Source of the DNA: a virus | Length of the DNA: 28,047 bases | Direction: 5' to 3' (one strand) | IMG/VR virus record: IMGVR_UViG_3300036792_000016 | Location: 1-28,047 of that record | In this document: in pieces, positions 2,933 through 19,877 of the stretch | Layout: every line of letters starts with the position of its first letter | How positions within the stretch are numbered: position 1 is the first letter of the stretch | The notes under the pieces: model-generated | What the model saw: only the letters and a program-made list of their open reading frames with translations | Database searches by the model: none | What the model was told of the DNA's origin: nothing | Position numbers and translations under genes: made by a program

Positions 2933-4099
2933 ATGCAAGGCGATTTCCAAAGCGTCGTAAACGACTTCCAGGCACCCGGTGTTGAGGGTGACTTCGCGAG
3001 CACGAACCCGTACTCGACCGTGCTTGCGGGACCCGGCGGGCTCGTTGCCCCGGCCGGCGGCTTGCAGGTTGGCAAGTTCTTTTGGGTTGGTCCGCAAGGC
3101 CAGTGTTCACAGTCCTTTGTTGCCGGCTATCAGGTTGCATTCCTGGGGCGGAACCAACAGGGTCTCATCACTGTGTTCCTCGAATCCAACACGCTCGGCG
3201 TGCCCGAGGGGTTCATGGTTACCGGCTTCAACGGCGGCGACTTTTGGGCTCGCTTCCCGGCCGGCGGCACCGTGGGCCAGAACGTGTACGCGGACCCGAA
3301 CGACGGTACACCGCTCGCGGGGGCCACGGCGCCCACGCTCGGCACCGTCACGGCGGTTACCGGCTTCACGGGCACCGCGACGTTGGTTCTCAACTCGGCG
3401 GTTCTCACGGTGGTTACGGCGACCCGAGGCCCGTTGAATGTTGGTGATACGGTCGCCGGCACGGATATCCCGAGCGGCACGACCATCCTGAATCAGCTTA
3501 CCGGCGACGCGGGCGCGGTCGGCACCTACACCATGTCGGCCGAAGCGACGGCCACCGTGGGTAGCGCCGAGGCGATCACCGCCACCAGCGTAGGCATGCT
3601 CGTTACGGCGGTCGCCGACGGGGCACTTACGGTAGGAGACCAGCTAACCGGCACGGGCGTCACAGCCGGTACGTCCGTCCTGTCACAGGTACAGCCGTTC
3701 AAGGGCGTTGCCACGGTCGGCACCTTGCCGAGCACGCCGAGCACCGCGTTGAACGTGACCTCGGTACAGCCGGGCACCGACCTCTTGCGCGTTGGCGCGA
3801 GCCTCGTCGGCGCCGGTATCCCCGCCGGTACGACGATTTCGTCGCAGACCAGCGGTACGCCGGGCGGCGTGGGCGTGTATGTCATGTCGGCCAATTCCAC
3901 GGCGGAAGCGGCGGGCGTGCCTATCACGACCACAGACTCGGCGGGCGGCACGGGCCTGTACGTCGTGAGCAACGCGCAAAGCTTCGCGTCCACGACGGTA
4001 ACCGTACCGGGCACCGCACAGGCTACCGGGTTCACGTTGACGGGCAGCTACAGCCCGTTCGACAACGAACTCGGCAAAATTAGCGCCAAGGTTTCGTAA
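2933..4099 (+). CDS. Structural cement/decoration protein A with inserted repeat modules
   Basis: Resembles phage capsid cement proteins, which bind the outside of the mature head. Residues 1-125 form the cement-like part (FQAPGVEGDFASTNP, LQVGKFFWVGPQGQ, FWARFPAGGTVGQNVYADP) and the last 25 residues (ATGFTLTGSYSPFDNELGKI) look like its closing strand. Between them, residues 146-355 hold up to three related Thr/Gly/Val-rich modules with the motif VGDTVAGTDIPSGTTI and variants (LTVGDQLTGTGVTAGTSV; VGASLVGAGIPAGTTI). At 388 residues it is about twice the size of the simple paralogue at 5187-5735. It lies just upstream of the major capsid gene. The cement call is by resemblance, and the modules are seen directly. 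Confidence 0.7.
   Translation: MQGDFQSVVNDFQAPGVEGDFASTNPYSTVLAGPGGLVAPAGGLQVGKFFWVGPQGQCSQSFVAGYQVAFLGRNQQGLITVFLESNTLGVPEGFMVTGFNGGDFWARFPAGGTVGQNVYADPNDGTPLAGATAPTLGTVTAVTGFTGTATLVLNSAVLTVVTATRGPLNVGDTVAGTDIPSGTTILNQLTGDAGAVGTYTMSAEATATVGSAEAITATSVGMLVTAVADGALTVGDQLTGTGVTAGTSVLSQVQPFKGVATVGTLPSTPSTALNVTSVQPGTDLLRVGASLVGAGIPAGTTISSQTSGTPGGVGVYVMSANSTAEAAGVPITTTDSAGGTGLYVVSNAQSFASTTVTVPGTAQATGFTLTGSYSPFDNELGKISAKVS
3368..3580 (+). repeat. GTDIP module, copy in cement protein A (repeat 1)
   Basis: Codes for residues 146-216 of cement protein A: an LVL.SAVLTV strand, then VGDTVAGTDIPSGTTI, then GTYTMSAEATATVGSAEAIT. The same module is found in the sheath (9042-9257) and baseplate J (17524-17718). 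DNA GGCACGGATATCCCG at 3458-3472 is identical to 17614-17628. Confidence 0.75.
3743..3928 (+). repeat. Diverged GTDIP module, copy in cement protein A (repeat 3)
   Basis: Codes for about residues 271-332, with VGASLVGAGIPAGTTI and GGVGVYVMSANSTAEAAGVP aligned to the GTDIP module. A shorter, more degenerate copy (LTVGDQLTGTGVTAGTSVLS) lies between it and repeat 1, so this protein carries a small array. Confidence 0.6.
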
Positions 4100-4125
4100 C
4101 TTCTGACACGTCATACCGAGACACC

Positions 4126-5178
4126 ATGACCACACGTGCAAATTTGCGGCTCGCGCTCGACGACTTGAACCGTCGCTACGGTATTCATTTCATGCGCGGG
4201 CTCGGCGAGGAACTCAAGGGCTCGTTGCTCGTCATGGACCGCGCAAGCGGTATGGCGCTCGACGCGCAGCCGCAGCTTGTGACGGCGGCGAACTCGGGTA
4301 TCCCGTCGCTGTTCACGACCTACGTTGACCCCTCTATCATCGAAGTTCTGGTGCGCCCCACGAAGGCCGCCGAACTCTACGGTGAGACCAAAAAGGGTAC
4401 GTGGGTCTCCGACACCATCATGTTTATCATGGCGGAGCGGACGGGCGAGGTTTCCAGCTACGGAGACTTCAGCAATGACGGCATGAGCAATGCCAACATC
4501 AACTTCCCGCAGCGCCAGTCGTACCACTACCAGACCAACACCCGTTGGGGTGAGCGCGAGCTAGCCCGAGCGGCCGAGGCGAAGGTCGATTGGGCGAACC
4601 AAGTCAACATGGGCTCGGTGCTGGCGCTCAACAAATACCAGAACTTTGCGTACCTGTTCGGTATCGCCGGGTTGCAGAACTACGGCGGCACCAACGCGCC
4701 GCAGCTTCCCGCGCCCATTGCGCCGACCTCTTCATGGTTCGGTGCCGACGGCGCGGTTGTCTACGCCGACGTACAGCGGCTCGTACAGCAAATGATTCTG
4801 CAAGGCAACGGCCTTGTCGATGCCGAGACCGCGTACACCATGGGCATCAGCCCCGGCAACGTGGTCAACTTCAACAACACGAACATGTACAACGTGAACG
4901 TGTTCGACCAAATCAAGAAGAACTTCCCGAACCTCAAGATTGTGACGGTTCCCGAGTTCGCGGTTGACGGGGGCGGCGGCCAAGGCGGCACCGAACTCGT
5001 ACAGCTTATCGCCGACAACGTTGAAGGCAAGCGTACGTGCGAGGCCGCCTTCACGGAGAAGATGCGCGCCCATGCGATGGTCGTCAAAACCTCGTCGTGG
5101 GAACAGAAGAAGTCGCAAGGCACCTGGGGCGTTGTGTTCTACCGCCCCGTGTTCGTTGCGCAAATGTTCGGCGCGTAA
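4126..5178 (+). CDS. Major capsid protein (DUF2184-like)
   Basis: Forms the head shell, presumably with the HK97 fold. The 350-residue length and features fit DUF2184 capsid proteins: an N-terminal region with RASGMALDAQPQLVTAANSG, IPSLFTTYVDPSIIEVLVRP, then FSNDGMSNANINFPQRQSYH, a central helical ALNKYQNFAYLFGIAGLQNY, and a C-terminal QGTWGVVFYRPVFVAQMFG. There is no obvious long delta domain to be cleaved. It sits between two cement paralogues, downstream of protease and scaffold, as expected for a head-shell operon. Confidence 0.85.
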   Translation: MTTRANLRLALDDLNRRYGIHFMRGLGEELKGSLLVMDRASGMALDAQPQLVTAANSGIPSLFTTYVDPSIIEVLVRPTKAAELYGETKKGTWVSDTIMFIMAERTGEVSSYGDFSNDGMSNANINFPQRQSYHYQTNTRWGERELARAAEAKVDWANQVNMGSVLALNKYQNFAYLFGIAGLQNYGGTNAPQLPAPIAPTSSWFGADGAVVYADVQRLVQQMILQGNGLVDAETAYTMGISPGNVVNFNNTNMYNVNVFDQIKKNFPNLKIVTVPEFAVDGGGGQGGTELVQLIADNVEGKRTCEAAFTEKMRAHAMVVKTSSWEQKKSQGTWGVVFYRPVFVAQMFGA

Positions 5179-5186
5179 GGCATGCG

Positions 5187-5735
5187 ATGTATGAGGGCGC
5201 GTTCGCTTCGAGGGTTCTAGGCCAAAACCTAGAAACCCTCGCGCCCTTCCGATCACTGCCCGCCGGCCCCGGCGCGTGGCGAGCGGGTCAAGGCGGCGTC
5301 CTTCAAGGCCGGTTCGGTTGGGCTAACCCCACGACCGGCCAAGTTCTCAACACCCCCACGACGCCGCAAGACGGCCTCGGTGTTGTAATCCCCCTTCAGA
5401 GTGTCAACGGTGCCAATGGTGCCGTTATAGGCGGCCCCGCGAGCTACGGCGGCCCCCAAGCCCGTTGGACGTGGCAGACCTACGACCGTGTGTACAAAGC
5501 CTGGAGGATGCGCGCGGGCATCGTTTGTACGGTCATGCCCGCCGGCAACTTTTGGTTGCGGTTTGCGGGCGGCGCAAATTACGGGGATACTGTCTACGCA
5601 CTCACGGACGGCTCGGGGCTAGCGGTCTCGGGAGCTTACGCCGGGGCGGTTGAAACGCCTTGGAAGGTTTGCAGCCCAACACCGCCCGGTCGTCTAGCGA
5701 TGGTTTCCACTACTGCACAATTTGGAGGTTCCTAA
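5187..5735 (+). CDS. Structural cement/decoration protein B
   Basis: A 182-residue protein that looks like a simple paralogue of cement protein A: GVLQGRFGWANP matches LQVGKFFWVGP, and NFWLRFAGGANYGDTVYALT matches DFWARFPAGGTVGQNVYADP in the same order. It lacks the GTDIP modules. I chose the ATG at 5187, preceded by AAGG at 5177-5180; upstream codons in this frame overlap the capsid gene and have the composition of a shadow frame. Its place right after the major capsid gene supports a head-surface role. Confidence 0.7.
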   Translation: MYEGAFASRVLGQNLETLAPFRSLPAGPGAWRAGQGGVLQGRFGWANPTTGQVLNTPTTPQDGLGVVIPLQSVNGANGAVIGGPASYGGPQARWTWQTYDRVYKAWRMRAGIVCTVMPAGNFWLRFAGGANYGDTVYALTDGSGLAVSGAYAGAVETPWKVCSPTPPGRLAMVSTTAQFGGS

Positions 5736-5736
5736 C

Positions 5737-6219
5737 ATGGCTGATGCACGAGAAGAAGTTGTTTCTGTTGGTTGCCGCCTTCCGGCGGGTCTCATTCTGG
5801 AGGTCGGCTTACAGACGACCATTCAGGACCCGTTGAGCCGGCGCCCTATCACGATGGTCGCACAGACCTCGACCTATCGCCGGTTCGCCTTGCGCGGAAC
5901 CCACGAGCACAGCCGCCCGTTGCGTGCACAGGGTATTCAGGTTCCCGCGATTCGCAACCCGCAACCTTTCATCAACCGCAACGTGCCCAAGGCACTGTGG
6001 GAAGAGTGGTACAAGAATAACAAGGAAAAATGGGCGTGCCGCAAGGGGCACGTGTACCTCGCCGCCAATGGTGACAGCAACACCAAGGCACAGACACTCG
6101 ACGTAATGGGTCGCGGTGACGCGCCGTTGAACCCGCTCGACAAAGACAAGAAAATGAAGTTCGGCGAAGACACCATCGAACCGGCACAGTTCGAGGAACA
6201 GGAAGCGGTAAAGGACTAA
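5737..6219 (+). CDS. Small phage structural-region protein with GC-LP-GL motif (paralogue 1)
   Basis: Function unknown. The start at 5737 has a strong GGAGG at 5724-5728, 8 bases away. Residues 10-25 contain VSVGCRLPAGLILEV, a motif seen in small phage proteins encoded near head-tail connectors, followed by a region ending RRFALRGTHEHSRPL. The C-terminal half (residues 75-160) is highly charged and adds WEEWYKNNKEKWACRKGHVY, similar to sequences thought to sense or exclude residues in connector proteins, but I cannot assign it. The gene at 6736-7035 is a shorter paralogue. The two flank the DUF4054 gene. Confidence 0.55.
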   Translation: MADAREEVVSVGCRLPAGLILEVGLQTTIQDPLSRRPITMVAQTSTYRRFALRGTHEHSRPLRAQGIQVPAIRNPQPFINRNVPKALWEEWYKNNKEKWACRKGHVYLAANGDSNTKAQTLDVMGRGDAPLNPLDKDKKMKFGEDTIEPAQFEEQEAVKD

Positions 6220-6223
6220 CGCC

Positions 6224-6736
6224 GTGCCTGTTGTCCCATGTCCTACGCCGTGCCCCCCGATAACTCGGGGGGTCGTGCAATTCAGCGCCGAAGAGTTCGT
6301 TGCGCTGTACCCCGAGTTTACGGGGTTGACAAACATCGTAATGATGAATTCATTCAACGATGCAACGCTGTTGCTCGACAACTCTTGCGCCTCGGCGGTC
6401 CAAGACGCCAACAAGCGCTTACTGTATCTGTACACGCTCACCGCGCATTGTCTGTTGATAGATCGCGGCACGAACGACGGCGAGGGCGATGTTGGAACGG
6501 CACAAGGTATCGTCGGAAGGATTGATAACGCGGCCGAGGGCTCGGTTAGTGTCTCGGCTTCCTACAACAACGACGTTAGCCAAAGCGAAGCGTATTTCAT
6601 CCAAACGAAGTACGGGGCCAAGTTCTGGCAACAGACTGCCTCGTATCGGGCCGGCGGTGTGTATGTTGGGGCGCCTTCCTTTGGCCCGAACGGCCCCGGT
6701 TTCCCATTCGGCTACGGTATCGTAGAGGTCGAGTAA
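6224..6736 (+). CDS. DUF4054-like head-tail connector protein
   Basis: 170 residues, GTG start. FSAEEFVALYPEFTGLTN followed by helices LLLDNSC... and LLYLYTLTAHCLLIDRGT, then GIVGRIDNAAEGSVSVSASY and a C-terminal AYFIQTKYGAKFWQQTASY, fit the DUF4054 adaptor pattern (helical bundle with a Ser/Val-rich loop and a Tyr-rich helix). Such proteins form a ring below the portal. The stop overlaps the next start by one base (TAATG). Confidence 0.75.
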   Translation: MPVVPCPTPCPPITRGVVQFSAEEFVALYPEFTGLTNIVMMNSFNDATLLLDNSCASAVQDANKRLLYLYTLTAHCLLIDRGTNDGEGDVGTAQGIVGRIDNAAEGSVSVSASYNNDVSQSEAYFIQTKYGAKFWQQTASYRAGGVYVGAPSFGPNGPGFPFGYGIVEVE

Positions 6737-7035
6737 TGAATGCGGGCGTAATCAACATCGGCTGTTCACTACCCCACGGGCTCGTGTTGACCTCGGGGCA
6801 CCCGACTGTTGACCCCAAAACGGGCAAGCTTTCGCCTCAGTACCAAGCCGTCGAGTTGAACGGGCTGAGCAAGGCGAAGAAGCCGCGCAAGTACGGCGTG
6901 ACGCTTGTGCCCGTGGCCACGTGGGTAATGTGGGTAGGGGAAAATAACACGCTTCGTTACGTCGTAGATGGCTCGGTGTTTATTGTCGATGGACAGAAAT
7001 GCTTGCATGCCCTAACGTTGAAGCCGTTGAAGTAA
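6736..7035 (+). CDS. Small phage structural-region protein with GC-LP-GL motif (paralogue 2)
   Basis: A 99-residue protein of unknown function. INIGCSLPHGLVLTSG aligns with VSVGCRLPAGLILEVG of the gene at 5737-6219, and both continue with a DP...LS.RP/SP stretch and a short basic loop. The C-terminal half (WVMWVGENNTLRYVVDGSVF) is beta-rich. It is translationally coupled on both sides by 1-base TAATG overlaps. It probably acts in head-tail connection, judged only from its place between DUF4054 and HK97 gp10-like genes. Confidence 0.55.
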   Translation: MNAGVINIGCSLPHGLVLTSGHPTVDPKTGKLSPQYQAVELNGLSKAKKPRKYGVTLVPVATWVMWVGENNTLRYVVDGSVFIVDGQKCLHALTLKPLK

Positions 7036-7604
7036 TGGCCACGTCGTTCAAACGTAGCGAGGTCAAGGGCGGAGACAAGTTGCAAAAATACTTGTTTCAC
7101 GTCGCACAGCAGCTAGGTACGGGCGGCACGGTGCGGGTAGGGTTCCTCGAAAATGCGATGTACCCATTCACAAACAAGACGGCTCGACTACGCGCGGGCA
7201 TTGCGCGCTTGCAGGCTACGGGACCTCGCAAACCTACGGCTCGGCCGGCTTTCATCGGCCCACGTAAGCAGACTCTTGCGGCGCCTCTTCCGGTAGCGAC
7301 GGTCGCATACTGGAACAACTTCGGTACGGCTCGCGCGAAAGCTCGCCCGTTCTTCTCCAACATGATCGCCGAGAAATCGCCCGGTTGGGGTAAGAAGCTA
7401 GGCAACGTGGCGAAGGCCGCCGGCTACAACACGAAGTTGACCTTGCAGCGTATGGGCGAGGGCATCCAAGGGCAACTCGTCAAGTACATCGTCGATTGGC
7501 CGGCGGATAACGCGCCGTTGACGGTGGCAATCAAGGGGTTCAACAAGGGCCTCGTTGACCAAGGCATCATGCAACGCGCCGTCGGCTACGAGGTGCGGCA
7601 ATGA
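7035..7604 (+). CDS. HK97 gp10-like neck/tail-completion protein
   Basis: 189 residues from the ATG at 7035 that overlaps the previous stop. The diagnostic stretch is VRVGFLENAMYP ... PVATVAYWNNFGTARAKARP followed by FFSNMIAEKSPGWGKKLG, the usual arrangement of HK97 gp10-family proteins. An insertion of about 35 residues (LRAGIARLQATGPRKPTARP) separates the two halves. The C-terminus is helical (LQRMGEGIQGQLVKYI). It likely forms part of the neck between connector and tail. Confidence 0.75.
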   Translation: MATSFKRSEVKGGDKLQKYLFHVAQQLGTGGTVRVGFLENAMYPFTNKTARLRAGIARLQATGPRKPTARPAFIGPRKQTLAAPLPVATVAYWNNFGTARAKARPFFSNMIAEKSPGWGKKLGNVAKAAGYNTKLTLQRMGEGIQGQLVKYIVDWPADNAPLTVAIKGFNKGLVDQGIMQRAVGYEVRQ

Positions 7605-8038
7605 GCATTGGCAACCTACACGGGCTCGTGCGCGGGGCAATCAACTCGGTCAACCCAGATATCAAGGCGCAATGGCTAGTATCGACCGGCAACACGGTTG
7701 ACGACGCCGGGGCCTCGGTTCCGGCGTACGCGGCGGCCGTGCCCGTCAAAGCACAGGTTCAAGCGCTCAAGGGTTCGGACCTCAAGAAATACAACTTCCT
7801 CCAGGCGCAAGGGGTGCACCGGGCCGTGTACATGTACGGCAACCCGGATGCCATCAACCGCGTCGAGTCGAAAGGCGGAGACCTCTTGCAGTTCCCGCAG
7901 TACCCCACGGGTGTTGTTCGCACGTGGCTTATCACGGCGGTTGACGAGCCGTGGACCTCGGGCAACGGCAACCTCGCATGGTGCCGCGTGATCGTTACAT
8001 TGCAGCTTGACCCCAACAACCCGGTGTCGCAAGTGTGA
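7601..8038 (+). CDS. Phage neck/head-closure-type protein
   Basis: 145 residues, ATGA-coupled to the gp10-like gene. The order KAQVQALKGSDLKKYNFLQA, then HRAVYMYGNPDAI, GGDLLQFPQ, VVRTWLITAVDEPWTSG and CRVIVTLQLD is that of small beta-barrel proteins found between gp10-like and tail-terminator genes in contractile-tail phages. A head-closure (stopper) role is likely but assigned mostly from gene order. Confidence 0.55.
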   Translation: MSIGNLHGLVRGAINSVNPDIKAQWLVSTGNTVDDAGASVPAYAAAVPVKAQVQALKGSDLKKYNFLQAQGVHRAVYMYGNPDAINRVESKGGDLLQFPQYPTGVVRTWLITAVDEPWTSGNGNLAWCRVIVTLQLDPNNPVSQV

Positions 8039-8574
8039 GCGGTCTAACACCTAGCATCCTCGAACGACAGTTATATGTTGCGGTCAAGGCGTTTCTCGTG
8101 ACCGTGACCGGGCTCGACCCGTCGTTGGTGTTGCAAGGGCTACCCAACCGCTCGGCGATGCCCCCGGCCTCGCCCGGCTTCGTGACGATGCAACTTACGG
8201 GCGGCACGCGCCTGAATTACAACGTTGACACGTGGGATACGACCGACCCGGCGCCTAGCATCATTTCTTCCGAGACCCATTGGAAGGAAAAGATGCAGGT
8301 TGACTTCTACGGTGCGGGGGCCGGCGATTGGTCGCGAGTCTTCGCCGGGCTGTGGAAGGACGAGACCGCGTGCCTAGCGCTCGAACCGGTGTGCGACCCG
8401 CTGTACGCGAACGACCCCATGCTTGCGCCGCTCGACGATGACGAACAGCAGTACGAATCCCGCTGGACCGTCGAGGCGTTTTTACAATATAATCCAGTTA
8501 CGTCCGTTCCCATGCAATTCGCCGATACGTTCGAAGTCACTCTAATATCCGTTGACGAGGCTTACCCCCCATGA
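8035..8574 (+). CDS. Tail terminator/tail-completion protein (LIC_12616-like)
   Basis: 179 residues, GTG start overlapping the previous TGA. It resembles the phage LIC_12616 family that precedes DUF3383 sheath genes: LQGLPNRSAMPPASPGFVTM, WKEKMQVDFYGAGAGDWSRV and a C-terminal ESRWTVEAFLQYNP. It would cap the tail tube or sheath at the neck. Codons around 8480-8500 are unusually AT-rich and contain a perfect TATAAT. The 3' end overlaps the sheath start (CCATGA). Confidence 0.65.
   Translation: MSGLTPSILERQLYVAVKAFLVTVTGLDPSLVLQGLPNRSAMPPASPGFVTMQLTGGTRLNYNVDTWDTTDPAPSIISSETHWKEKMQVDFYGAGAGDWSRVFAGLWKDETACLALEPVCDPLYANDPMLAPLDDDEQQYESRWTVEAFLQYNPVTSVPMQFADTFEVTLISVDEAYPP
8464..8493 (+). promoter_or_regulatory. 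Candidate promoter inside the tail terminator gene, upstream of the sheath
   Basis: TGGACC (8464-8469), 18 bases, then a perfect TATAAT (8488-8493), 77 bases before the sheath ATG. The local AT-rich codons (Phe TTT, Leu TTA, Tyr TAT, Asn AAT) stand out from the GC-ended codons around them. The -35 is weak (4 of 6). Confidence 0.3.
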
Positions 8575-10331
8575 CCTCCATCCCAATGAGTCAACTTATC
8601 GGATCGACCCCGAGCGTTCTAGGCGCCGGGGGCAATCCGCTATCGCCGAACGGCTTGGCGTTGACGACCGACCCCTCTATCCCAATCGGCGTTGCACAGG
8701 CTTTCGTGAACGACGCCGCCGTGAGCGCATGGTTTGGAGCCAACGCCCCGGAAACCCTCAATTGGGGCAACATCTACTTCGGGGGCTTCATCGGTGCCGA
8801 TTCGCTACCCGGAACGATGTACTTTTTCCAGTATAACGAGGATGACGTTGCGGCGTATCTGCGCGGCGGTTCGCTGGCGACAACGACCCTCACCGAGTTG
8901 CAAGGCTTCTCGGGCACGCTACTGGTCACGGTTGACGGGCGCGCACTGACCTCGGCGAACATCAACCTTTCGAGCGCCACGAGCTTTAGCAACGCGGCCG
9001 GGCTGTTGCAGACTGGCCTACAGAACGTCGGCAACGTCTGGACTGGCACCCTCACGACGGCGACCTCGGAAACGGTCACCATCGACACGACCACGACCGG
9101 ACAGCTACACGTCGGCGACGTACTCGTGGGCACCGATATCCCGGTCGGCGCCACCATCACGGCGTTCGGAACTTACACCCCGACCACGGGTATGGGCACC
9201 GTGACGATTAGCGCGGCGGCGACCGGCACCGTTGGACCCGAGGCCGGTACGGTCACGTACGACCCGACGGTGACTTACGACGCGCTTCGAGAGGGGTTCG
9301 TCATCACGTCGCCCACGACGGGCGTTACAAGCTCGCTTGCCTTCGCCTCGGGCGCGCTCGCGGTCGATCTACTGTTGACCCAAGTCACGGGTGCGGTGCT
9401 CTCTCAAGGCGCCGCAGCCGCCACGCCCGCGAGCGCCATGAACGCGGTGACTCAGGCCACGCAAAATTGGGTGACCTTCTCGCACGTGTTCGACCTCACG
9501 GGCGACGTTCCAACCGCCCTCGGGTTCGCGCAATGGGTCAGCACGGCGAGCCCGGCCGGTCAAGAACGCTTTTTATATGTTGAATGGGACGCGGACTTGG
9601 CCGAGACGACCGGCCCGGCGTCGGAGTCGTTCGGCGCGATGGTCACGGCCGCGAGCTACAACGGCGTCATGCCGAACTTCGACCTCACGAGCGGCCAGAA
9701 AGCGGCGTTCGTCATGGGTGCGATTGCCTCGCTCGATACGAGCGCGACCGGCGGCCGGTTCACCCTTGCGTACAAGGGGCAGAACGGGTTGACCCCCGAC
9801 GTGACCTCGGCGCAGGTTGCCGCGAACCTCGCCGGCACCCCGTACGGCTCGGGCGGCAACGGTTACAACTTCTACGGCGCGTTCGCTACCGCGAATCAGG
9901 CGTTCCAGTTCCTACAGCCCGGCTCCATGCCCGGCCAATGGAAATGGGTCGATGCCTATGTCAACCAAGTGTTGATGAACTCCGACTTTCAACTCGCGTT
10001 GGCCGAGCTTGAGACCAACGTCAAGTCGATTCCGTTCAACACGGCCGGGTACAACCTGATTCGCTCGACGTTGCTCGACCCAATCAACAAGTACATCAAC
10101 TTCGGCGCGATTCAGCCGGGCATACCGCTGTCGGCGTCTCAGGCGCAGCAAGTCAACACGGCGGCCGGCCGGAAGATTGACACCGTACTGTCTACGGTTG
10201 GTTGGTACTTACAGATTCTACCGGCGTCGGCGCAGGTTCGCGGGTTGCGAGGCTCGCCGCCTATGAAGTTCTGGTACACCGACGGCGGCTCGATACAGTC
10301 GTTGTTGCTCGCGACCATCGACATTCAATAA
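8571..10331 (+). CDS. Contractile tail sheath protein (DUF3383-like) with inserted module
   Basis: Forms the contractile tail sheath. The N-terminal half has the family layout (FVNDAAVSAWFGANAPE, YFGGFIGADSLPGTMYFFQY, FSGTLLVTVDGRALTSANIN) and the C-terminal half contains FYGAFATANQAFQFLQPGSM, QWKWVDAYVNQVLMNSDFQL, LLDPINKYINFGAIQPGIPL and the terminal GLRGSPPMKFWYTDGGSIQS. Residues about 158-229 are an extra GTDIP module (LHVGDVLVGTDIPVGATI, TVTISAAATGTVGPEAGTV) placed between a helix and the strand VTYDALREGFVITSP. That position is a loop, so the module is probably exposed on the sheath. At 586 residues the protein is longer than DUF3383 proteins usually are, which matches the insertion. 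Confidence 0.85.
   Translation: MTSIPMSQLIGSTPSVLGAGGNPLSPNGLALTTDPSIPIGVAQAFVNDAAVSAWFGANAPETLNWGNIYFGGFIGADSLPGTMYFFQYNEDDVAAYLRGGSLATTTLTELQGFSGTLLVTVDGRALTSANINLSSATSFSNAAGLLQTGLQNVGNVWTGTLTTATSETVTIDTTTTGQLHVGDVLVGTDIPVGATITAFGTYTPTTGMGTVTISAAATGTVGPEAGTVTYDPTVTYDALREGFVITSPTTGVTSSLAFASGALAVDLLLTQVTGAVLSQGAAAATPASAMNAVTQATQNWVTFSHVFDLTGDVPTALGFAQWVSTASPAGQERFLYVEWDADLAETTGPASESFGAMVTAASYNGVMPNFDLTSGQKAAFVMGAIASLDTSATGGRFTLAYKGQNGLTPDVTSAQVAANLAGTPYGSGGNGYNFYGAFATANQAFQFLQPGSMPGQWKWVDAYVNQVLMNSDFQLALAELETNVKSIPFNTAGYNLIRSTLLDPINKYINFGAIQPGIPLSASQAQQVNTAAGRKIDTVLSTVGWYLQILPASAQVRGLRGSPPMKFWYTDGGSIQSLLLATIDIQ
9042..9257 (+). repeat. GTDIP module, copy in tail sheath
   Basis: Codes for residues 158-229. 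GTDIPVGATI and ISAAATGTVGPEAGTV align with the modules of cement protein A and baseplate J. The DNA GGCACCGATATCCCG here differs from the other two by one base. Confidence 0.75.
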
Positions 10332-10343
10332 GGGCACTGACAC

Positions 10344-10775: not shown

Positions 10776-10778
10776 GTT

Positions 10779-10794
10779 AGTTCCCACGGGAACT
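10779..10794. promoter_or_regulatory. 16-bp near-palindrome, copy 2
   Basis: AGTTCCCACGGGAACT, identical in all 16 bases to 1225-1240. It starts 4 bases after the tail tube stop and lies in the 49-base gap before the tail chaperone gene. Both copies thus fall at gene ends in gaps, which argues against chance. Confidence 0.55.
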
Positions 10795-10824
10795 CACGGA
10801 CAACAACGCACTGACATATGAGCC

Positions 10825-11337
10825 ATGAGAAAAACAAAACGGTTGACTATTACCGGCGAGGGCCGCGACAAGGGTAAGACGTTCATTCTTACCGAAATGC
10901 CCGCCGACCAAGGCGAGCGTTGGGCGCTTCGAGCGCTCTTAGCCCTCACCAACACGGGCGCGGCCATTCCCGAGGAAGCGTTAGGCGCGGGCATGGCCGG
11001 GCTTGCAGCCGTGGGCGTCCAAGCCCTCGGCATGCTCGACTCCCTACAGGTACAGCCCTTGCTCGACGAGCTTTGGCCGTCGTGTGTGCGCTACGCGCCG
11101 CCGAATGAAAAGCTCATGCCTCAAGAGATTATGCCGGGGGTGAACTCCCAAATTGAAGAGGTCAAGACCCGCGTCGAGATTTACCGGGAGTTGTTGAACC
11201 TCCACACGGGTTTTTTTATGCCCGCCGAACTCCCGACTTCGGCGTTGCCGGATTCGGCGGGCGGCAAGGTCGGTTGGATTTCCTCAATGTCCCACGCATT
11301 GTTGGGACTCTTGTCGCGAATCGGCTTGCGACACTAG
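10825..11337 (+). CDS. Tail assembly chaperone, unshifted product (lambda G-like role)
   Basis: 170 residues, between tube and tape measure, where tail assembly chaperones lie. The N-terminal part (RLTITGEGRDKGKTFILTEM, then WALRALLALTNTGAAIP) and EVKTRVEIYRELLNLHTGFF are typical of the phage chaperone family. In this phage the ribosome can shift -1 at GGGTTTTTTT (11208-11217); without the shift it reads a further 39 codons to the stop at 11335-11337. It should bind the tape measure during tube assembly and be absent from the virion. Confidence 0.75.
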   Translation: MRKTKRLTITGEGRDKGKTFILTEMPADQGERWALRALLALTNTGAAIPEEALGAGMAGLAAVGVQALGMLDSLQVQPLLDELWPSCVRYAPPNEKLMPQEIMPGVNSQIEEVKTRVEIYRELLNLHTGFFMPAELPTSALPDSAGGKVGWISSMSHALLGLLSRIGLRH

Positions 11338-11435
11338 TAGAGTTGCAAACTATTCTCGGCGTAGAGGATGCCTACAACCTGTTAGAAGTCTTCAGCGTCG
11401 AGAACTACAACCGAGCCAAAACGACTAAGCCGTAA
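10825..11435 (+). CDS. Tail assembly chaperone, -1 frameshift product (lambda GT-like role)
   Basis: Product of a probable -1 programmed frameshift: codons 1-131 are read in the frame of the shorter product up to the T run at 11211-11217, then reading resumes at 11217 and continues 72 codons to TAA at 11433-11435, giving about 203 residues. The new C-terminal part contains LATLVELQTILGVEDAYNLL followed by EVFSVENYN, the helical pattern typical of the second half of chaperones in this phage group. This half has no start codon of its own with a convincing context. Its stop overlaps the tape measure ATG (TAATG). The fusion is inferred; the slippery site, stem and open frame are seen. Confidence 0.7.
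11208..11261 (+). promoter_or_regulatory. -1 ribosomal frameshift signal
   Basis: In-frame codons read ACG GGT TTT TTT ATG, so both G GGT TTT (11208-11214) and T TTT TTT (11211-11217) are slippery heptamers. Downstream, CCCGCCGAA (11221-11229) pairs perfectly with TTCGGCGGG (11253-11261), a 9-bp stem starting 6 bases after GGGTTTT. An alternative 7-bp stem, CGCCGAA (11223-11229) with TTCGGCG (11238-11244), is also possible. Confidence 0.7.
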
Positions 11436-13075
11436 TGCCCGCCACGATAATTGACGCCCTAGTTGTTACCCTCGGCCTCGACGGCGGCCCGTACAAGCGT
11501 GCGGCACGTGAGGCCGCGCGCGAGCAAGCGAAGCTCAAAGATTCAGTAAAGAAAGGCGGCGACGAGGTTAGCTCGGCGCTCGCCGAGGTTGGCCGGCAAG
11601 CCGCGTTGCTGTTCATAGGCTTCGAGGGCATCAAGGGTGCAATCAACTTCTTTGCGGGCATCAACGTCGCGACGGCCGACCTTGGCCGCTTTTCCAAGAA
11701 CCTCGGCGAGTCTGCGCACGAGGTCAACACGTGGGACTCAGCGGTAGAACTCGCGGGCGGCTCGGCGAAAGATGCTCAAGCCGACTTGCAAGGGCTGTCG
11801 AATTCCATCACGGCGTTGAAGGCTACGGGCGATGTGTCGCCGCTGTTGCTATTGTTCCAACGCATGGGTGTGTCGATCTACGACGCCCAAGGCAAGACCC
11901 GTAAGCTAACCGACCTCTACAAAGACCTCGGCGACAAGCTACGACAGTACAACCGCGCCGACGCGTTCAACCTCGCGCGCCAAGCCGGGCTTTCCGAGTC
12001 AACATTCAACCTCATCCGCGCCGAGGGCGACGAGCGCGAGCGGCTGTTGCGGCTTGCCGAACAGAACAACACGGTTACGGACGAGTCAACGCAGAAAGCC
12101 GCCGAGTTGCAAGAGGAATGGCGCGGTATCGGCCAGACTGTGAAGGGCTTCGGGCTCACACTGTTGGGTGACATTACCCCGGCCATCAAAGACTTGTTCG
12201 GTTGGGTACAGCGCATATTTACGGGAGTCAAGAACACCGGATTCTTGCAGGGTGTGTTTACGGTCTTGGCCGGTGCCGTGCGAGTGTTGGTTGACCTCGT
12301 AAGGGTCGCATGGTCGGGGCTGTCGCAACTATTCGACTTGTTGGTGAACTCCAAGGCCGGCAAGTTCCTTGTAGGGCTGTTGGAAAAGCTGAAAGGCTTT
12401 GGCAAAGAGTTCGTTGCGCAAGCCGACCGGTTCGCCGACCAGTACGCGCCCGAGGCGAAGACAGCCGCGCCCGCGCCGGCCGCCGCCTTGACGGCTGCGC
12501 AACGTAAGGCCGCGCGCAACAACCCCGGCGACTTGCGGTTCGCGGGGCAGTCTGGCGCGACCAACGAGGGTGGGTTTGCCTCGTTCAAGACTCTCGCCGA
12601 TGGTATACAGGCGTCGAACCGACAACTCGACTTGTTCGCAAAGCGCGGTATCAACACCATTGACAAGATCATTTCCAAATGGGCACCCCCGAACGAGAAC
12701 AACACGCCCGCGTACAAAGCGGCCTTGTCTAAGTTCATTGGTAAGGGGTTGAATGAGGAACTGACAACCGCCGACCGTCAACGGTTGCTGCAAGGTATCT
12801 TTAACCAAGAGGGGGTGAACAAGGTCTCATCGGCACAGATTGCCGGCGTTGTTCAGAATCCTAACGCGCTTTCGGCGGCACAGTTTGCCAACAGCCAAGC
12901 CGTACCGGGGCAGACTGGCGGGGCCGGGGGCAACACCTCGACGACTACGATTGACATAGGCGAAGTCCACGTGCACGCGCCGAACGCTCGCGACGCTAAC
13001 GACATAGCGGCCGAGCTACCCGGTGCGTTGAAGCGCAAGGGCATCGTCGCGCAAGCTGATTCGGGGATGAGCTAA
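11435..13075 (+). CDS. Tail tape measure protein with muramidase-like domain
   Basis: Sets tail length and passes into the cell during injection. The first 340 residues are mostly helical (KRAAREAAREQAKLKDSVKK; LQEEWRGIGQTVKGFGLTLL) with hydrophobic stretches near 55-75 and 268-300. Residues about 359-460 form a distinct domain, RNNPGDLRF ... GFASFKTLADGIQASNRQLD, then GINTIDKIISKWAPPNENNT, matching the NNPGN-type domain of phage virion muramidase/structural proteins. The C-terminus has the TTTIDIGEVHVHA beta motif usual in tape measures. At 546 residues it is short, implying a short tail (roughly 80 nm by the usual 1.5 angstrom per residue rule). Start fixed by the TAATG overlap. Confidence 0.85.
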   Translation: MPATIIDALVVTLGLDGGPYKRAAREAAREQAKLKDSVKKGGDEVSSALAEVGRQAALLFIGFEGIKGAINFFAGINVATADLGRFSKNLGESAHEVNTWDSAVELAGGSAKDAQADLQGLSNSITALKATGDVSPLLLLFQRMGVSIYDAQGKTRKLTDLYKDLGDKLRQYNRADAFNLARQAGLSESTFNLIRAEGDERERLLRLAEQNNTVTDESTQKAAELQEEWRGIGQTVKGFGLTLLGDITPAIKDLFGWVQRIFTGVKNTGFLQGVFTVLAGAVRVLVDLVRVAWSGLSQLFDLLVNSKAGKFLVGLLEKLKGFGKEFVAQADRFADQYAPEAKTAAPAPAAALTAAQRKAARNNPGDLRFAGQSGATNEGGFASFKTLADGIQASNRQLDLFAKRGINTIDKIISKWAPPNENNTPAYKAALSKFIGKGLNEELTTADRQRLLQGIFNQEGVNKVSSAQIAGVVQNPNALSAAQFANSQAVPGQTGGAGGNTSTTTIDIGEVHVHAPNARDANDIAAELPGALKRKGIVAQADSGMS

Positions 13076-13758
13076 TGCCGTCTGTCTTTATTCCCAAGCC
13101 GCCGTTTCCCAACATTCCGTTCCTGTTGGGCGTGCCGCAAATTGTCCGTTCGCTGTTGTTCCAACCGGCGAACCAAGTAACCTTGGGCGCGCAAGCGCAA
13201 CACGGGCTTTGGGCGTCGGCTCAGGTTGCCCCGTCGTGGGGAATCTACGATACCAACGGTAACAAGGTCATCGACCCCGACAATGTGTATGCCTTCGACA
13301 ACCGGGCGGAGTGGCGCGAGTCGGACTATCCCGTTCAACGCGGCGCGTTCGACACCTTCAACAAGGTCATCGTGCCGCCCGAGTCTTCGGTACGCATGAC
13401 GAAAGGCGGCTCGCTGTCGGCTCGTACGGCGTTCCTGAAGTCCATTGACCAGATTGCGGGAGACACCCTTACATACAACATTCTGACGCCCGAGAAGACG
13501 TACTTTAGTCAGAACGTTATCCGCGTCGAGCTTTTGCGGCGTAGCGCCGAGGGTGCGTACTTTGTCGAAATTGATGTGTTCTTTCGCTCTATCATCGAGC
13601 AGAACGCGCAGTATTCCACGACTGCGGCGAGCACGGCGAACGCGGTGAACCCGCCGGCACTTCCGGCCGTGAACCAAGGCAACGTGCAACCTAACTCGGT
13701 TGTACCTAACAGCGTAAAGACTGTTGCGACCAAGGCCATTGCGAGCGCCCCACTATGA
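13075..13758 (+). CDS. Tail/baseplate structural protein
   Basis: 227 residues, between tape measure and baseplate plug, a place taken in related contractile-tail phages by a baseplate-region protein. The N-terminus is Pro-rich and hydrophobic (PPFPNIPFLLGVPQIVRSLL). The middle, NVYAFDNRAEWRESDYPVQR and FNKVIVPPESSVRMTKGG, then FLKSIDQIAGDTLTYNILTP, is conserved in style with this family. The last 50 residues are low-complexity (Ala/Asn/Pro/Val). A role as tube-to-hub adaptor is likely by position, not by motif. Confidence 0.6.
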   Translation: MPSVFIPKPPFPNIPFLLGVPQIVRSLLFQPANQVTLGAQAQHGLWASAQVAPSWGIYDTNGNKVIDPDNVYAFDNRAEWRESDYPVQRGAFDTFNKVIVPPESSVRMTKGGSLSARTAFLKSIDQIAGDTLTYNILTPEKTYFSQNVIRVELLRRSAEGAYFVEIDVFFRSIIEQNAQYSTTAASTANAVNPPALPAVNQGNVQPNSVVPNSVKTVATKAIASAPL

Positions 13759-14099
13759 TGATAGTGCCCCTAAGCGCGGTCGCTTCTCAGACGCTACAGT
13801 TCGTTGCGGGCGGGCAGAACTGCCAAATGTCGGTGTACACTAACGACGGCTACGACTACACGGACCCAACGCTTAGCGAGCCCAAAGAGTACATTGCGAT
13901 TGACTTCGCCTATAACGGCGTGCAAGTCACCAACACTCAGAATTGTTTGAACCGCAAGCGGCTGTTGATTAATCGTCAGTACCTTGGATTCGTCGGCGAC
14001 TTCATGTTCGTAGACACGCAAGGCGTAGACGACCCGCAGTTCGAGGGCTTGGGCGCGCGTTGGCTGTTGCTGTACCTCGAAGCGTCGGACCTCCCATGA
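13755..14099 (+). CDS. Baseplate plug protein (cyanophage Pam3-type family)
   Basis: 114 residues. IVPLSAVASQTLQFVAGGQN followed by CQMSVYTNDG, DFAYNGVQVTNTQNCLNR and LGFVGDFMFVDTQGVDDP, then GLGARWLLLYLE, is the full pattern of the phage baseplate plug family named after a cyanophage structure. It closes the tube lumen beneath the tape measure. ATGA overlaps couple it to both neighbours. Three Cys residues are present. A second Met codon immediately follows the first, so the start may be 3 bases later. Confidence 0.8.
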   Translation: MMIVPLSAVASQTLQFVAGGQNCQMSVYTNDGYDYTDPTLSEPKEYIAIDFAYNGVQVTNTQNCLNRKRLLINRQYLGFVGDFMFVDTQGVDDPQFEGLGARWLLLYLEASDLP

Positions 14100-14980
14100 C
14101 GACGTTCACCAAGAAAGACCTACGCTTTACATTCATACTCGCGAGCAACGCCAAGTTTGCGGGTACTAACTCGAACACCCTGAAAGTCAACGGGCTTCGT
14201 GCTTCGGCGACTATCAAGGGCTCGGGGTTGCCGGCGTTCCCCGAGTCGGACTTGACCATATTCGGGTTGAAGCAAGACGACATGAACGCGCTTACGGCAA
14301 CACAGTTTCAGCCGTTGAGCATGCAACGCAACACCGTGTTAGTCGAAGCCGATAGCGGTCAAGGCTTCTCGACAGTGTTCTCGGGTCAGATTATCACGAG
14401 CGGCCCCGACTACGACGGCATACCGCAAGCGCCGTTGAAGGTACAGGCGCGCGTGCTCGGCTTCGATTCGTTGAATCCGGCCACGGCTACGAGCTACACG
14501 GGCGCGACCAGCGTCGCCAACATCGTGGGCACGATTGCCTCGAAGCTCGGGTACGTGTTGGAAAACAACGGCGTGAACGTCAACTTGAGCAACCCGTATT
14601 TCGGCGGCACGCTCGTTGACCAGCTACGCGCGGTTGCCTCGCAAGCCGGAATCGATGTGTACACCGAGGGCAACGTCATTGCGATATGCCCCAAGGGTGC
14701 GCCCCGGCAACAACAGTCGTTCACGCTCTCGCCGCAATCTGGCCTCGTGGGATACCCCAAGCTCGACTTTCAACGCGGGTACGTCTACACCAAGGCGCTT
14801 TACAACTCGGCCTTTCGCTTCGGCGGCCCGATCACTGTGCAAGGTTCGGACGTTCCGCTAGCCAACGGTAAATGGGTCATCGGTACGATATCCCACGAGC
14901 TTAGCTCGTTGACACCTAACGGCCCTTGGTTCTCTAGCATGCTCTTGTACCCGCCTAACAGCTTGCCGCCGATATCATGA
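14096..14980 (+). CDS. Baseplate hub protein (gp27/late control D-like)
   Basis: 294 residues from the ATG at 14096. It begins FTKKDLRFTFILASNAKF and has the two-barrel hub layout: LKVNGLRASATIKGSGLPAF then FSGQIITSGPDYDGIPQAPL, with a central helical segment SVANIVGTIASKLGYVLENN and the LRAVASQAGIDVYTEGNVIA stretch characteristic of hub proteins. The C-terminal domain (GKWVIGTISHELSSLTPNGP) is the usual closing barrel. It forms the trimeric hub joining tube and spike, and is encoded just before the spike, as expected. Confidence 0.75.
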   Translation: MTTFTKKDLRFTFILASNAKFAGTNSNTLKVNGLRASATIKGSGLPAFPESDLTIFGLKQDDMNALTATQFQPLSMQRNTVLVEADSGQGFSTVFSGQIITSGPDYDGIPQAPLKVQARVLGFDSLNPATATSYTGATSVANIVGTIASKLGYVLENNGVNVNLSNPYFGGTLVDQLRAVASQAGIDVYTEGNVIAICPKGAPRQQQSFTLSPQSGLVGYPKLDFQRGYVYTKALYNSAFRFGGPITVQGSDVPLANGKWVIGTISHELSSLTPNGPWFSSMLLYPPNSLPPIS

Positions 14981-15567
14981 CCCAAGTATTCGGCCAACAA
15001 GACACCTCGACGACGACCGACGATTACAACACGTTGGCGTTTGTGTTTTGGTTGCTTATGCAGAACGTGCAAACGGCGACCATTGTCAAGGTTATATCGT
15101 GCACCAACGACGGCGGCTTGTCGCCCGTCGGTCGCGTCACGGTGCAACCGTGCGTCAATCAAATGACGGGCAACCGGCAAGCCGTGCCGCACGGTCAGAT
15201 TTTCAATTGCCTCTACTCGCGCATGACGGGCGGCGACAATGCAATCATCATGGACCCCAAGAAAGACGACCTTGGGCTTATGGTGTTCTGTTCGCGCGAT
15301 CTAACAGGCGTTATAGCCAACGCGGGGCCGGCGAACCCCGGCTCGTTCCGCAAGTTTGATTGGGCCGACGGCGTTTATATGGGGGGCGTACCTCTCGGAA
15401 AAACTGCAATTCAGTACATGAGGTTTGCCGCCGGCATAGAGTTAGGTTCCCCCGTCGTATCGACTACCGAAAACCTAAGTGTTGGTACGGGAGCCACGGG
15501 AGTCTTTACAACTCCTACCGGACAAACAGTTACGGTGCAAAACGGTATCATCGTGAGTATTGCATGA
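14977..15567 (+). CDS. Membrane-puncturing spike (gp138-like)
   Basis: 196 residues. ATIVKVISCTNDGGLSPVGR followed by VTVQPCVNQ, HGQIFNCLYSRMTGGDNAII, then DLGLMVFCSRDL matches the OB-fold N-terminal domain of gp138-family spikes. The C-terminal 45 residues (SVGTGATGVFTTPTGQTVTV then QNGIIVSIA) are the short beta-prism strands that form the pointed trimer tip. Codons from about 15408 to 15560 are visibly more AT-rich than the OB part, as though the tip had a separate history. It punctures the outer membrane when the sheath contracts. Confidence 0.8.
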   Translation: MTQVFGQQDTSTTTDDYNTLAFVFWLLMQNVQTATIVKVISCTNDGGLSPVGRVTVQPCVNQMTGNRQAVPHGQIFNCLYSRMTGGDNAIIMDPKKDDLGLMVFCSRDLTGVIANAGPANPGSFRKFDWADGVYMGGVPLGKTAIQYMRFAAGIELGSPVVSTTENLSVGTGATGVFTTPTGQTVTVQNGIIVSIA

Positions 15568-15938
15568 CCTCTCCTATCAACGCTGATTATTTCACGGCCC
15601 TTACGGCGCAAGTCAACTTGGCGGGGTCTTGCGCGGAGTTGCAAGCCGTAACTGACGCCGCTATGGAGTCGGTGTTAGCCGCTCAAGCTTCCGCGACGGC
15701 GCAGCTTGCAACTATAACACCCATGTTGGCTTTATTGACGGCGCCAGCGGCGAGCCCGGCGGCTATCGTCACGTACATCAACACTTTGATATCGGCGTAT
15801 CTGACGCCGCAGCTAGCGCCCGCCGTAACTTTGGCCGCGCAATTGGCTGCGCTCACGGCCGCTATCGCAAGCCTTACGGCTGCTATAGAATCGAAGGCGG
15901 CGCAATTCAATTCCTGCACGATAACGGTACCAGTATGA
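15564..15938 (+). CDS. Small Ala-rich helical baseplate-region protein
   Basis: I do not recognise this 124-residue protein. It is overwhelmingly Ala/Leu/Thr with helices such as VTDAAMESVLAAQASATAQL and LAAQLAALTAAIASLTAAIE, which have heptad-like spacing and could form a trimeric coiled coil. A hydrophobic stretch at about 50-75 is too polar to be a clear membrane segment. ATGA overlaps tie it to spike and initiator genes, so a baseplate role, perhaps as a spike-associated or assembly protein, is likely. The ATG at 15564 was chosen; longer upstream readings overlap the spike gene. Confidence 0.5.
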   Translation: MTSPINADYFTALTAQVNLAGSCAELQAVTDAAMESVLAAQASATAQLATITPMLALLTAPAASPAAIVTYINTLISAYLTPQLAPAVTLAAQLAALTAAIASLTAAIESKAAQFNSCTITVPV

Positions 15939-16339
15939 GCGCACCGTTCGACACGATTCTGTTGGACCTCGACACGTGGGATTACGTCGTCGATGCTTCG
16001 GGCAATTGGGCGAAGGCGGCGCCGCCGTACGCGCTCGCGCAAGATGTATCGAGCGCGTGCCGGCTCATCAAAGGCGAGCTTTGGTACGACGACTCGCAAG
16101 GTATCCCGTACTTGAACCTCAACGGCGGCGCGGGCGGCCCGAACAATAATTCGAACGTTCTCGGGCAAACGCCGCCACTATCGCTCTTGCAGGAGTATTT
16201 AGTGCAAGCGGCCTTGACCGTTCCGGGTGTCGTGAAAGCGGTCGCCGTGGTACAGTCTTTCGATGCAAGCACGCGCCGCGTGAACGGTCAAGTCCAATTT
16301 ACCGACGTGAACGGCAACACCGGGACCGTTAACCTATGA
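15935..16339 (+). CDS. Sheath initiator / baseplate wedge (gp25-like)
   Basis: 134 residues. LLDLDTWDYVVDASGNWAKA, YALAQDVSSACRLIKGELWY, then DDSQGIPYLN, PLSLLQEYLVQAALTVPGVV and FDASTRRVNGQVQFTD follow the gp25/DUF2634-type wedge pattern in order. It templates sheath polymerisation at the baseplate. The gene lies immediately upstream of baseplate J, the standard pairing, with a 4-base overlap. Confidence 0.75.
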   Translation: MSAPFDTILLDLDTWDYVVDASGNWAKAAPPYALAQDVSSACRLIKGELWYDDSQGIPYLNLNGGAGGPNNNSNVLGQTPPLSLLQEYLVQAALTVPGVVKAVAVVQSFDASTRRVNGQVQFTDVNGNTGTVNL

Positions 16340-17796
16340 GCGATACCGCAGTAACCCCGCCGATTTTCACGCCGACCGGGCTTGTTATCCCGCCGCAGTC
16401 TCAAACGCTGGCCGAGGTACAGGAAGACGTCAACGCGGCGTTCGGCGGCAATCTCAACTTCGGAACGACGGACCAACCCGGCGGCGCGCCCCCGCAGGTT
16501 CAACAAGCCGCGTCTTATGCGGCCATGGTGTCGGATAACTACAGCGTCTTCGCGGAATTCGTTGACCAAGTAGACCCTGACAACGCCGAAGGGTTCATGC
16601 AAGACGCCATAGGGCGCATTTACTTTCAGAACCGCAAGCCCGGTGTGCCGACCTCGGTACAACTTCTGTGCGTAGGCGCGTTGAATACGCCTATCCCCGT
16701 CGGGGCTCAGGCGCAAGACACGAGCGGCAACATTTACGTGTGTACGCAAGCCGGCACCATCCCGGCGGGCGGTAGCATACTGTTAGCTTTCGCGAACATG
16801 TTACTCGGGCCGATTCCTTGCCCGGCCAACACGGTGACGCGTATCTATCAATCTATTCCGGGTTGGGATACGGTTAACAACCCGAACGCCGGCACGCCGG
16901 GCTCGGATGTTGAAAGCGCGGCCGACTTTGAATTTCGTCGGCAGAACTCCGTTGCGGCGAACGCCCACGGGTCGTTGCCCGCGATCTACGGCGCCGTGTT
17001 CGAGGTCGCCGGGGTGATTGATGCGTTCGTTACCGAGAACGTCACAGACAACCCCATAAGCGGGCCGCTCGGCGCTAACGAGAGCGTGCCTAACAGCACG
17101 AACTACACCCTCGTCGGTCACTCGTTCTATGTTGGTGTGATAGGCGGCGTCGCGGCCGATGTTGCCAACGCCATATGGACCAAGAAGAACGAAGGCTCGA
17201 ACATGAACGGCAACACGACTGTTGTCGTTCAGGACACGAGCGGGTATTCATTCCCGCAGCCGTCCTACAACATCACGTTCAACCGTCCGACCGCGACCGC
17301 GTACAACTTCATAATCAACATAGTCAACACCTCGGCGTTGCCGGCGACGATTGTTGCAGACGTGCAAGCCGCCGTGACGGCGCAGTTCAACGGCACCAAC
17401 GGCGGCCAGCGGGCGCGCATTGGGTCGTTGCTACTTGCCGCGTCGTACTACGGTCCCGTCGCTACGTGCGAAGGGCCGAGCGTGCCCGTACAAGTCTTGT
17501 CGATTTTCCTCGGCTCGGCGTTCGTGGGAACGGGCTCGGTCGTGACCGGCTCGGAAACTCTCACGGTGAACACAACGACCTCGGGCTCGTTGTCGCCGGG
17601 TACGGTTGTCGCGGGCACGGATATCCCGGCCGGTACGACCATCGTGCAACAGCTTTCGCCTACGACGTACCAGATGAGCAAGCAAGCCACGGGTACGGCC
17701 GGCCCCGAAGCCATCACGGGCACGGGCGGCACCGCGCAACAGATAGGCATCGACCAAGCCCCGGTTATCGGAACGGTTACGGTCAACTTGGTGTAG
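16336..17796 (+). CDS. Baseplate J-like wedge protein with inserted module
   Basis: Wedge protein that closes the baseplate ring. Features in order: TGLVIPPQSQTLAEVQEDVN, the QAASYAAMVSDNYSVFAEFV helix, then the domain-swap region with GTPGSDVESAADFEFRRQNS, VAGVIDAFVTENVTDNP and HSFYVGVIGG, typical of family PF04865. The usual ending, SVPVQVLSI ... IGIDQAPVIGTVTVNLV, is split by residues about 397-461, a GTDIP module (SPGTVVAGTDIPAGTTIVQQ; KQATGTAGPEAIT). The insertion is therefore in a loop between the last strands. Otherwise of normal length. Confidence 0.85.
   Translation: MSDTAVTPPIFTPTGLVIPPQSQTLAEVQEDVNAAFGGNLNFGTTDQPGGAPPQVQQAASYAAMVSDNYSVFAEFVDQVDPDNAEGFMQDAIGRIYFQNRKPGVPTSVQLLCVGALNTPIPVGAQAQDTSGNIYVCTQAGTIPAGGSILLAFANMLLGPIPCPANTVTRIYQSIPGWDTVNNPNAGTPGSDVESAADFEFRRQNSVAANAHGSLPAIYGAVFEVAGVIDAFVTENVTDNPISGPLGANESVPNSTNYTLVGHSFYVGVIGGVAADVANAIWTKKNEGSNMNGNTTVVVQDTSGYSFPQPSYNITFNRPTATAYNFIINIVNTSALPATIVADVQAAVTAQFNGTNGGQRARIGSLLLAASYYGPVATCEGPSVPVQVLSIFLGSAFVGTGSVVTGSETLTVNTTTSGSLSPGTVVAGTDIPAGTTIVQQLSPTTYQMSKQATGTAGPEAITGTGGTAQQIGIDQAPVIGTVTVNLV
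17524..17718 (+). repeat. GTDIP module, copy in baseplate J
   Basis: Codes for residues 397-461 of baseplate J. The core VVAGTDIPAGTTI is nearly identical to TVAGTDIPSGTTI of cement protein A, and 15 bases (17614-17628) match 3458-3472 exactly. ATGTAGPEAIT matches ATGTVGPEAGT of the sheath. Confidence 0.75.
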
Positions 17797-19876: not shown

Positions 19877-19877
19877 C

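Follow-up and report, generated by a model that had tools for sequence, protein, structure and literature searches.

A predicted small beta-barrel module shared by three virion proteins of a contractile-tailed phage: cement, tail sheath and baseplate J

The sequence analysed here comprises positions 1-28,047 of the IMG/VR record IMGVR_UViG_3300036792_000016, and this whole stretch of 28,047 nt is referred to below as the window. PHROG and Pfam searches show it to encode structural proteins of a contractile-tailed phage, with head morphogenesis, protease/scaffold, cement, major head and second cement proteins and a DUF3383 sheath, along with a tape measure protein, baseplate hub, baseplate J protein and tail fibres. 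Three of these proteins, all encoded on the plus strand, are the subject of this work. The cement/decoration protein (2933-4099) matches PF23982 (1.7e-16), PF22758 (2e-10) and PHROG 2122 (9e-32), the tail sheath of the DUF3383, XM1/E217 type (8571-10331) matches PF11863 (1.2e-100), and the baseplate J or wedge protein (16336-17796) matches PF04865 (1.4e-10) and PHROG 6 (1e-51). Each passes the curated Pfam cut-offs, with PF22758 and PF23982 scoring 41.4 and 60.9 bits against 27 for the cement protein, PF11863 scoring 338 bits against 34.9 for the sheath, where the sheath fold is also found, and PF04865 (Baseplate_J) scoring 41.4 bits against 21.1 for J. These matches agree with the cement, sheath and baseplate J identities given in a first-pass annotation of the sequence, and the counterparts of J by sequence are E217 gp44 and XM1 gp16. 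A second cement-family protein (5097-5735, plus strand; PHROG 2122, 1.5e-14) gave no match in profile searches for the module described below, and serves as a module-free internal control.

Other genes in the window have features of their own. The C-terminal third of the tape measure protein (11435-13075; aa 356-519) matches endolysin and injection transglycosylase PHROGs, which suggests a built-in lytic domain. PHROG 2229, a head maturation protease of 428 aa, is split between two consecutive ORFs, with its N-terminal part at 1286-2059 and its C-terminal part at 2141-2917, and protease and scaffold appear to be separately encoded. Two neighbouring tail-fibre-type genes (18858-20300) share 89% identity over 44 nt encoding DPDxGGAGW, a possible point of duplication or exchange. 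Downstream of lysis-type genes, the ORF at 24292-24924 encodes a small alpha/beta-hydrolase-like protein with the motifs HGILDPVGT and GHSNGCA.

A module of ~60-70 residues is repeated three times in tandem in the cement protein, and the sheath and J have a single copy each; the coordinates given here are profile boundaries, and all copies are on the plus strand. The cement protein consists of an N-terminal cement domain (aa 5-150), the three modules and a short C-terminal strand. Copy 1 (3368-3580) is found by single-sequence, profile and leave-out profile searches, while the diverged copies 2 (3581-3742) and 3 (3740-3928) match the profile with iE values of 7e-18 and 1e-22, each obtained with the copy itself inside the profile. 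The sheath module lies at about 9042-9257 and the J module at about 17524-17718, in the loop preceding the last strand (IGIDQAPVIGTVTVNLV). With cement copy 1 as the query, the window yields J at 17527-17718 (58% identity, E 3e-11), the sheath at 9042-9239 (49%, 4.5e-8) and two further stretches of the cement protein, 3758-3913 (3e-8) and 3599-3739 (2e-4). As a guard against self-fulfilling profiles, each host was omitted in turn; the leave-one-host-out profiles still detect the omitted copies, with E-values of 3e-15 for cement, 3.9e-11 for J and 1.2e-7 for the sheath. None of 15,888 shuffled ORFs reached an E-value of 0.01 with a wider profile. At the level of sequence comparison, the copies in cement, sheath and J are thereby shown to share a common origin, as expected from the single GTDIP module of ~65-70 residues that the first-pass annotation had placed in all three proteins. 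The closing motif assigned to the module at that stage, xxATGTxGPEAxT, is present in the sheath and J, but cement copy 1 reads ATATVGSAEAIT and copies 2 and 3 are without this tail. Searches of the module region of the window proteins with Pfam and NCBIfam at E-values up to 1 gave no match, Ig and Big families included, and the module is therefore a domain family without an entry in the Pfam or NCBIfam models searched.

The structure of the module was predicted from 89 aligned copies. Modelled alone, it forms a five-strand beta-barrel-like domain (pLDDT 96.6, pTM 0.83), with the first and last strands at its two ends. The same strand order reappears at aa 156-229 of the sheath model (pLDDT 82), the remainder of which matches the E217 sheath gp31 (8env_A, Z 30.5) and the Pa193 sheath (9b42_S, Z 31.8) over 447 residues. 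Prediction, which covers the module alone and the sheath, supports independent folding of the module. Among solved structures, Arthrobacter phage Bridgette provides the best match with its capsid decoration protein (8eci chain 1), at a Z of 7.6, an rmsd of 1.9 Å over 62 of 73 aa and 37% identity; Foldseek gives the same pair a probability of 1.00 (E 0.035), and 8eci is also the top, borderline match of the sequence profile (E 0.067). The next structural matches are translation-factor-type barrels at Z 5.7-6.4, a range common for small folds. An Ig fold is disfavoured, as antibody Ig domains align poorly in Foldseek (TM 0.25-0.35, rmsd 6-8 Å, E above 1), whereas the barrels align to nearly the whole module at an rmsd of 2.5-3. 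The models therefore lean clearly towards a small barrel rather than an Ig sandwich.

Relatives with and without the module show how it sits in its hosts. The window sheath as a query in IMG/VR identified 10 sheath relatives. In the close relatives among them the module occupies the same position, and close relatives of the cement and J proteins likewise have it at the sites seen in the window. More distant sheaths are without it (L063, L065, L037, L077, L015, L084, L031 and L071), and others contain two copies (L036 and L070) or three (L058). In the alignment of module-free sheaths, L063 and L077 among them, SFSNAAxLIQxxL joins VTYDSxxxAFVITSxTTG cleanly. The same clean join is found in GenBank sheaths from an H. 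pametensis prophage, Aeromonas vB_AsaM-56, Xanthomonas BsXeu269p/3 and Pseudomonas Amjad_SA. Among the 40 listed of 134 related phage records, those with the highest coverage match ~85% of the window sheath, split into 2-3 pieces, as would be expected of sheaths that have no module. The J proteins of L077 and L015 are also module-free, while that of L091 has two copies in the loop before the last strand, and the module-free members of the cement family include L084 as well as the control at 5097-5735. Comparison site by site therefore returned both module-free homologues, for the sheath and J, and close relatives in which all three sites are occupied. The proposal that the module interrupts otherwise complete folds at loops in the sheath and J holds, since homologues without it are intact and joined cleanly at the same points.

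The sheath site can be placed further by alignment to XM1 gp6, for which an insertion domain has been described (PMC10457771), and to E217 gp31, for which the corresponding description is of domain A (PMC10329688); the smaller pyocin sheath is without this region (PMC10457771, PMC10329688). The counterpart of this domain in the window sheath would span 8886-9356 on the plus strand, with approximate boundaries, and on this alignment the module probably falls within it and interrupts it. In the sheath tree, two changes account for presence and absence of the module, the test of a single origin for the sheaths that carry it gives no rejection (p-AU 0.40), and sheaths with several copies group in one supported clade. 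Trees alone cannot separate gain from loss, and gain is the simpler reading because the sampled cultured relatives are without the module.

The module extends well beyond this phage group. IMG/VR scans returned 142 module-bearing ORFs at 112 loci, a figure that counts in three metagenome-assembled genome (MAG) loci and exceeds the number of contigs, since some loci overlap. By PHROG and Pfam assignment, the hosts in the head are cement proteins, SU10-type and PHROG 777 major capsid proteins, connectors and head closure (Hc3) proteins, while those in the tail are tail tube or major tail proteins, two sheath families, nozzle, terminator, minor tail, collar and fibre proteins. Virion structural proteins, an amidase (lysin), a GDSL lipase and Laminin_G/Big_9 proteins complete the range, and seven loci have the module in 2-4 proteins of one contig (L036, L040, L055, L058, L060, L081 and L082). 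Among predicted viral proteins in BFVD there are 307 matches at E <=10, six of them at <=0.001. The matches listed name P22 gp10-like, HK97 major capsid, side tail fibre (Stf-like), tail collar and cyanophage virion proteins, as well as giant-virus collagen-repeat proteins, and include Synechococcus, Bordetella and Arthrobacter phages. A profile search of genome contigs with a narrower alignment gave the three MAG loci only, one of which (L092) has no match with the module profile. Another encodes an Acetobacteraceae protein with three module copies (L090:927-2699); read by eye, the N terminus of this protein resembles a signal sequence and its C terminus a PEP-CTERM motif, and secreted proteins of bacteria may be a further setting for the module. 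Searches of 50,697 phage records by tblastn with single modules and a consensus gave nothing useful or weak matches only, probably owing to the low-complexity filter acting on Thr/Gly-rich sequence, and we make no claim that the module is absent from cultured phages. Taken at its widest, the module would be an uncatalogued non-Ig barrel family that moves among virtually all virion protein classes of tailed phages and reaches giant viruses and bacterial secreted proteins, forming a second general, optional particle coating parallel to Ig-like domains, and we cautiously favour this broad reading.

What the module does for the particle can be approached from its placement and composition. Cement trimers of the same family stand on the capsid surface in XM1 (PMC10457771), as do those of E217 gp24 (PMC10329688), and extra sheath domains sit away from the tube (PMC9230969). 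Together with a sheath site in the insertion-domain region, these structures make outward display likely, and surface exposure of the module is likewise likely given its insertion sites, independent fold and solved homologues. With the first and last strands in one small barrel, the ends of the module should be close together, which would let it drop into a hairpin loop and leave the host fold unbroken. It would then project outward from the cement trimers at the capsid threefold positions, from the tail sheath and from the baseplate. The modules are 61% G/S/T/A, with 3.6% charged and 2.7% aromatic residues compared to 10.3% and 8.9% elsewhere in the host proteins. Conservation falls chiefly on glycines, turns, small Thr/Ser sites and hydrophobic core residues, and a search of the module alignment for a conserved charged or aromatic surface patch found none recognisable. 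This inert composition and the lack of such a patch argue against a specific ligand site, and would better fit weak multivalent contact or shielding. The particle may accordingly wear a dense, Thr/Gly/Ser-rich and almost uncharged coat, which could touch polymers of the cell surface or the extracellular space through many weak contacts, shield the particle, or both. We therefore propose, with a probability of roughly 0.68, that the module is an independently folding beta-barrel domain that acts as a plug-in on virion proteins, probably displayed outward and, more tentatively, serving weak contacts or shielding.

Two other functions have been weighed, stabilisation and a passenger role, and we place them second and third behind accessory display with weak contacts or shielding. 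As stabilisers, the modules would be in contact with one another or with adjacent subunits and strengthen the capsid and sheath in the manner of cement rather than face the outside. The nearest solved structure is a capsid decoration protein, the cement protein has the most module copies in this genome, and extra sheath domains have been proposed to possibly cement the tail (PMC9230969). Homologous cement, sheath and J proteins nonetheless manage without the module, and its hosts among lysins, a lipase, collar and fibre proteins and a bacterial secreted protein have no lattice to reinforce, which makes stabilisation a doubtful, though credible, primary role. As a tolerated passenger, the module would spread because exposed loops accept it without harm, and the phage would gain little or nothing from it. 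The inert composition, the lack of a conserved functional patch and the clean loss or absence in relatives would all suit a passenger, but the same sites are kept across sheaths that are 50-80% identical, the core motif is conserved and tandem arrays have expanded in several hosts, so we consider this explanation unlikely.

How the copies came to occupy three proteins of one genome is a separate question, which the first-pass annotation had answered with spread by copying within the genome. Cement copy 1 and J do share 15 identical bases, with 85% identity over 48 nt, and in L060 a major head protein, a PHROG 779 protein and a major tail protein encoded in a row (L060:3740-7574) carry one module each, the three clustering together in the module tree. 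The 15-base match has a P of about 0.011 given the matched amino acids, before counting alternative stretches, and says little on recent copying because these bases encode the common GTDIP in codons favoured by the genome. Cement and J modules have a mean identity of 0.52 when they come from one genome (n=4) and 0.50 when they come from two (n=167); the corresponding values are 0.46 and 0.44 for cement and sheath and 0.43 and 0.44 for J and sheath. The closest pairs of all, at 0.70-0.75 identity, come from different genomes, cement-J pairs between genomes reach 0.70, and modules in different proteins of one contig, compared over their whole length, do not exceed about 0.60 in nucleotide identity. 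In the module tree (69 columns, 124 rows, many unsupported forks), J copies form one group, and main cement copy 1 and sheath groups form largely by site; all three groups share a single well-supported half of the tree, from which cement copies 2 and 3 are separate. Given the few columns and unsupported forks, only the clustering by site and this large starred split are used here. Relatives also carry all three sites, and recent copying between genes inside this genome is very improbable, disfavoured by both the identity comparison and the tree. Clustering by site with no excess of same-genome similarity indicates instead that each site would have been filled before this phage group diversified, with vertical inheritance thereafter. 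Convergence of Thr/Gly-rich beta-structure, for which the strongly biased composition might speak, is close to negligible as an alternative to common descent, since leave-one-out profiles recover every host's copy, shuffled sequences of equal composition give no matches, the motifs are ordered along about 60 residues and a single fold is predicted.

To our knowledge, nearly all optional domains described from phage particles have Ig-like folds, and what these domains are for is a standing question. Ig-like domains on virion proteins of tailed phages were reportedly described by Fraser et al., and T4 Hoc is an example. Sheaths, too, can carry Ig-like extra domains (PMC9230969). Like these domains, the module is optional and repeated, folds independently, occurs in capsid, tail and fibre proteins alike, is missing from close homologues and is presumably displayed at the surface. 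The likeness in behaviour suggested at first pass is borne out by the IMG/VR scans and BFVD, where the module is optional and recurs in unrelated virion proteins. It differs from Ig-like domains in its predicted small-barrel fold, the lack of any sequence relation and its occurrence mostly as loop inserts. The Bridgette decoration protein has the same fold over the whole module, but there the module makes up a large part of a stand-alone protein of 126 residues, while in this phage three larger proteins carry it as an insert. The insertion domain of XM1 gp6, which is FliD D3-like, is also an accessory domain in the N-terminal domain of a sheath (PMC10457771), and the module would be a second insert nested within the equivalent region. 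Domain-2-type barrels of translation factors (SelB, IF2, aIF5B, eEFSec) align at Z about 6 and an rmsd of 2.5-2.9 over 67-71 aa; with no sequence relation and a Z range common for small folds, this may be merely a common arrangement. Among phage protein profiles, an inner segment of PHROG 21413, 38233 and 17105 matches the module, and in PHROG 21413 and 38233 it lies inside longer proteins; these profiles cluster entire proteins, of unknown function or of tail-fibre type, and are not models of the module. The module has Ig-like habits but, by its predicted fold, looks like another class, and we would place it as a new family within an already known type of element.

A second, structurally different domain family with the same habits permits a comparison with Ig-like domains, in which features of placement, copy number and composition that are common to both families point to purpose, while features that differ do not. 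Natural controls for such work exist in sheath homologues with 0, 1, 2 and 3 copies and in J homologues with 0, 1 and 2. The module also explains unannotated stretches in many structural proteins of environmental phages that databases now label "unknown".
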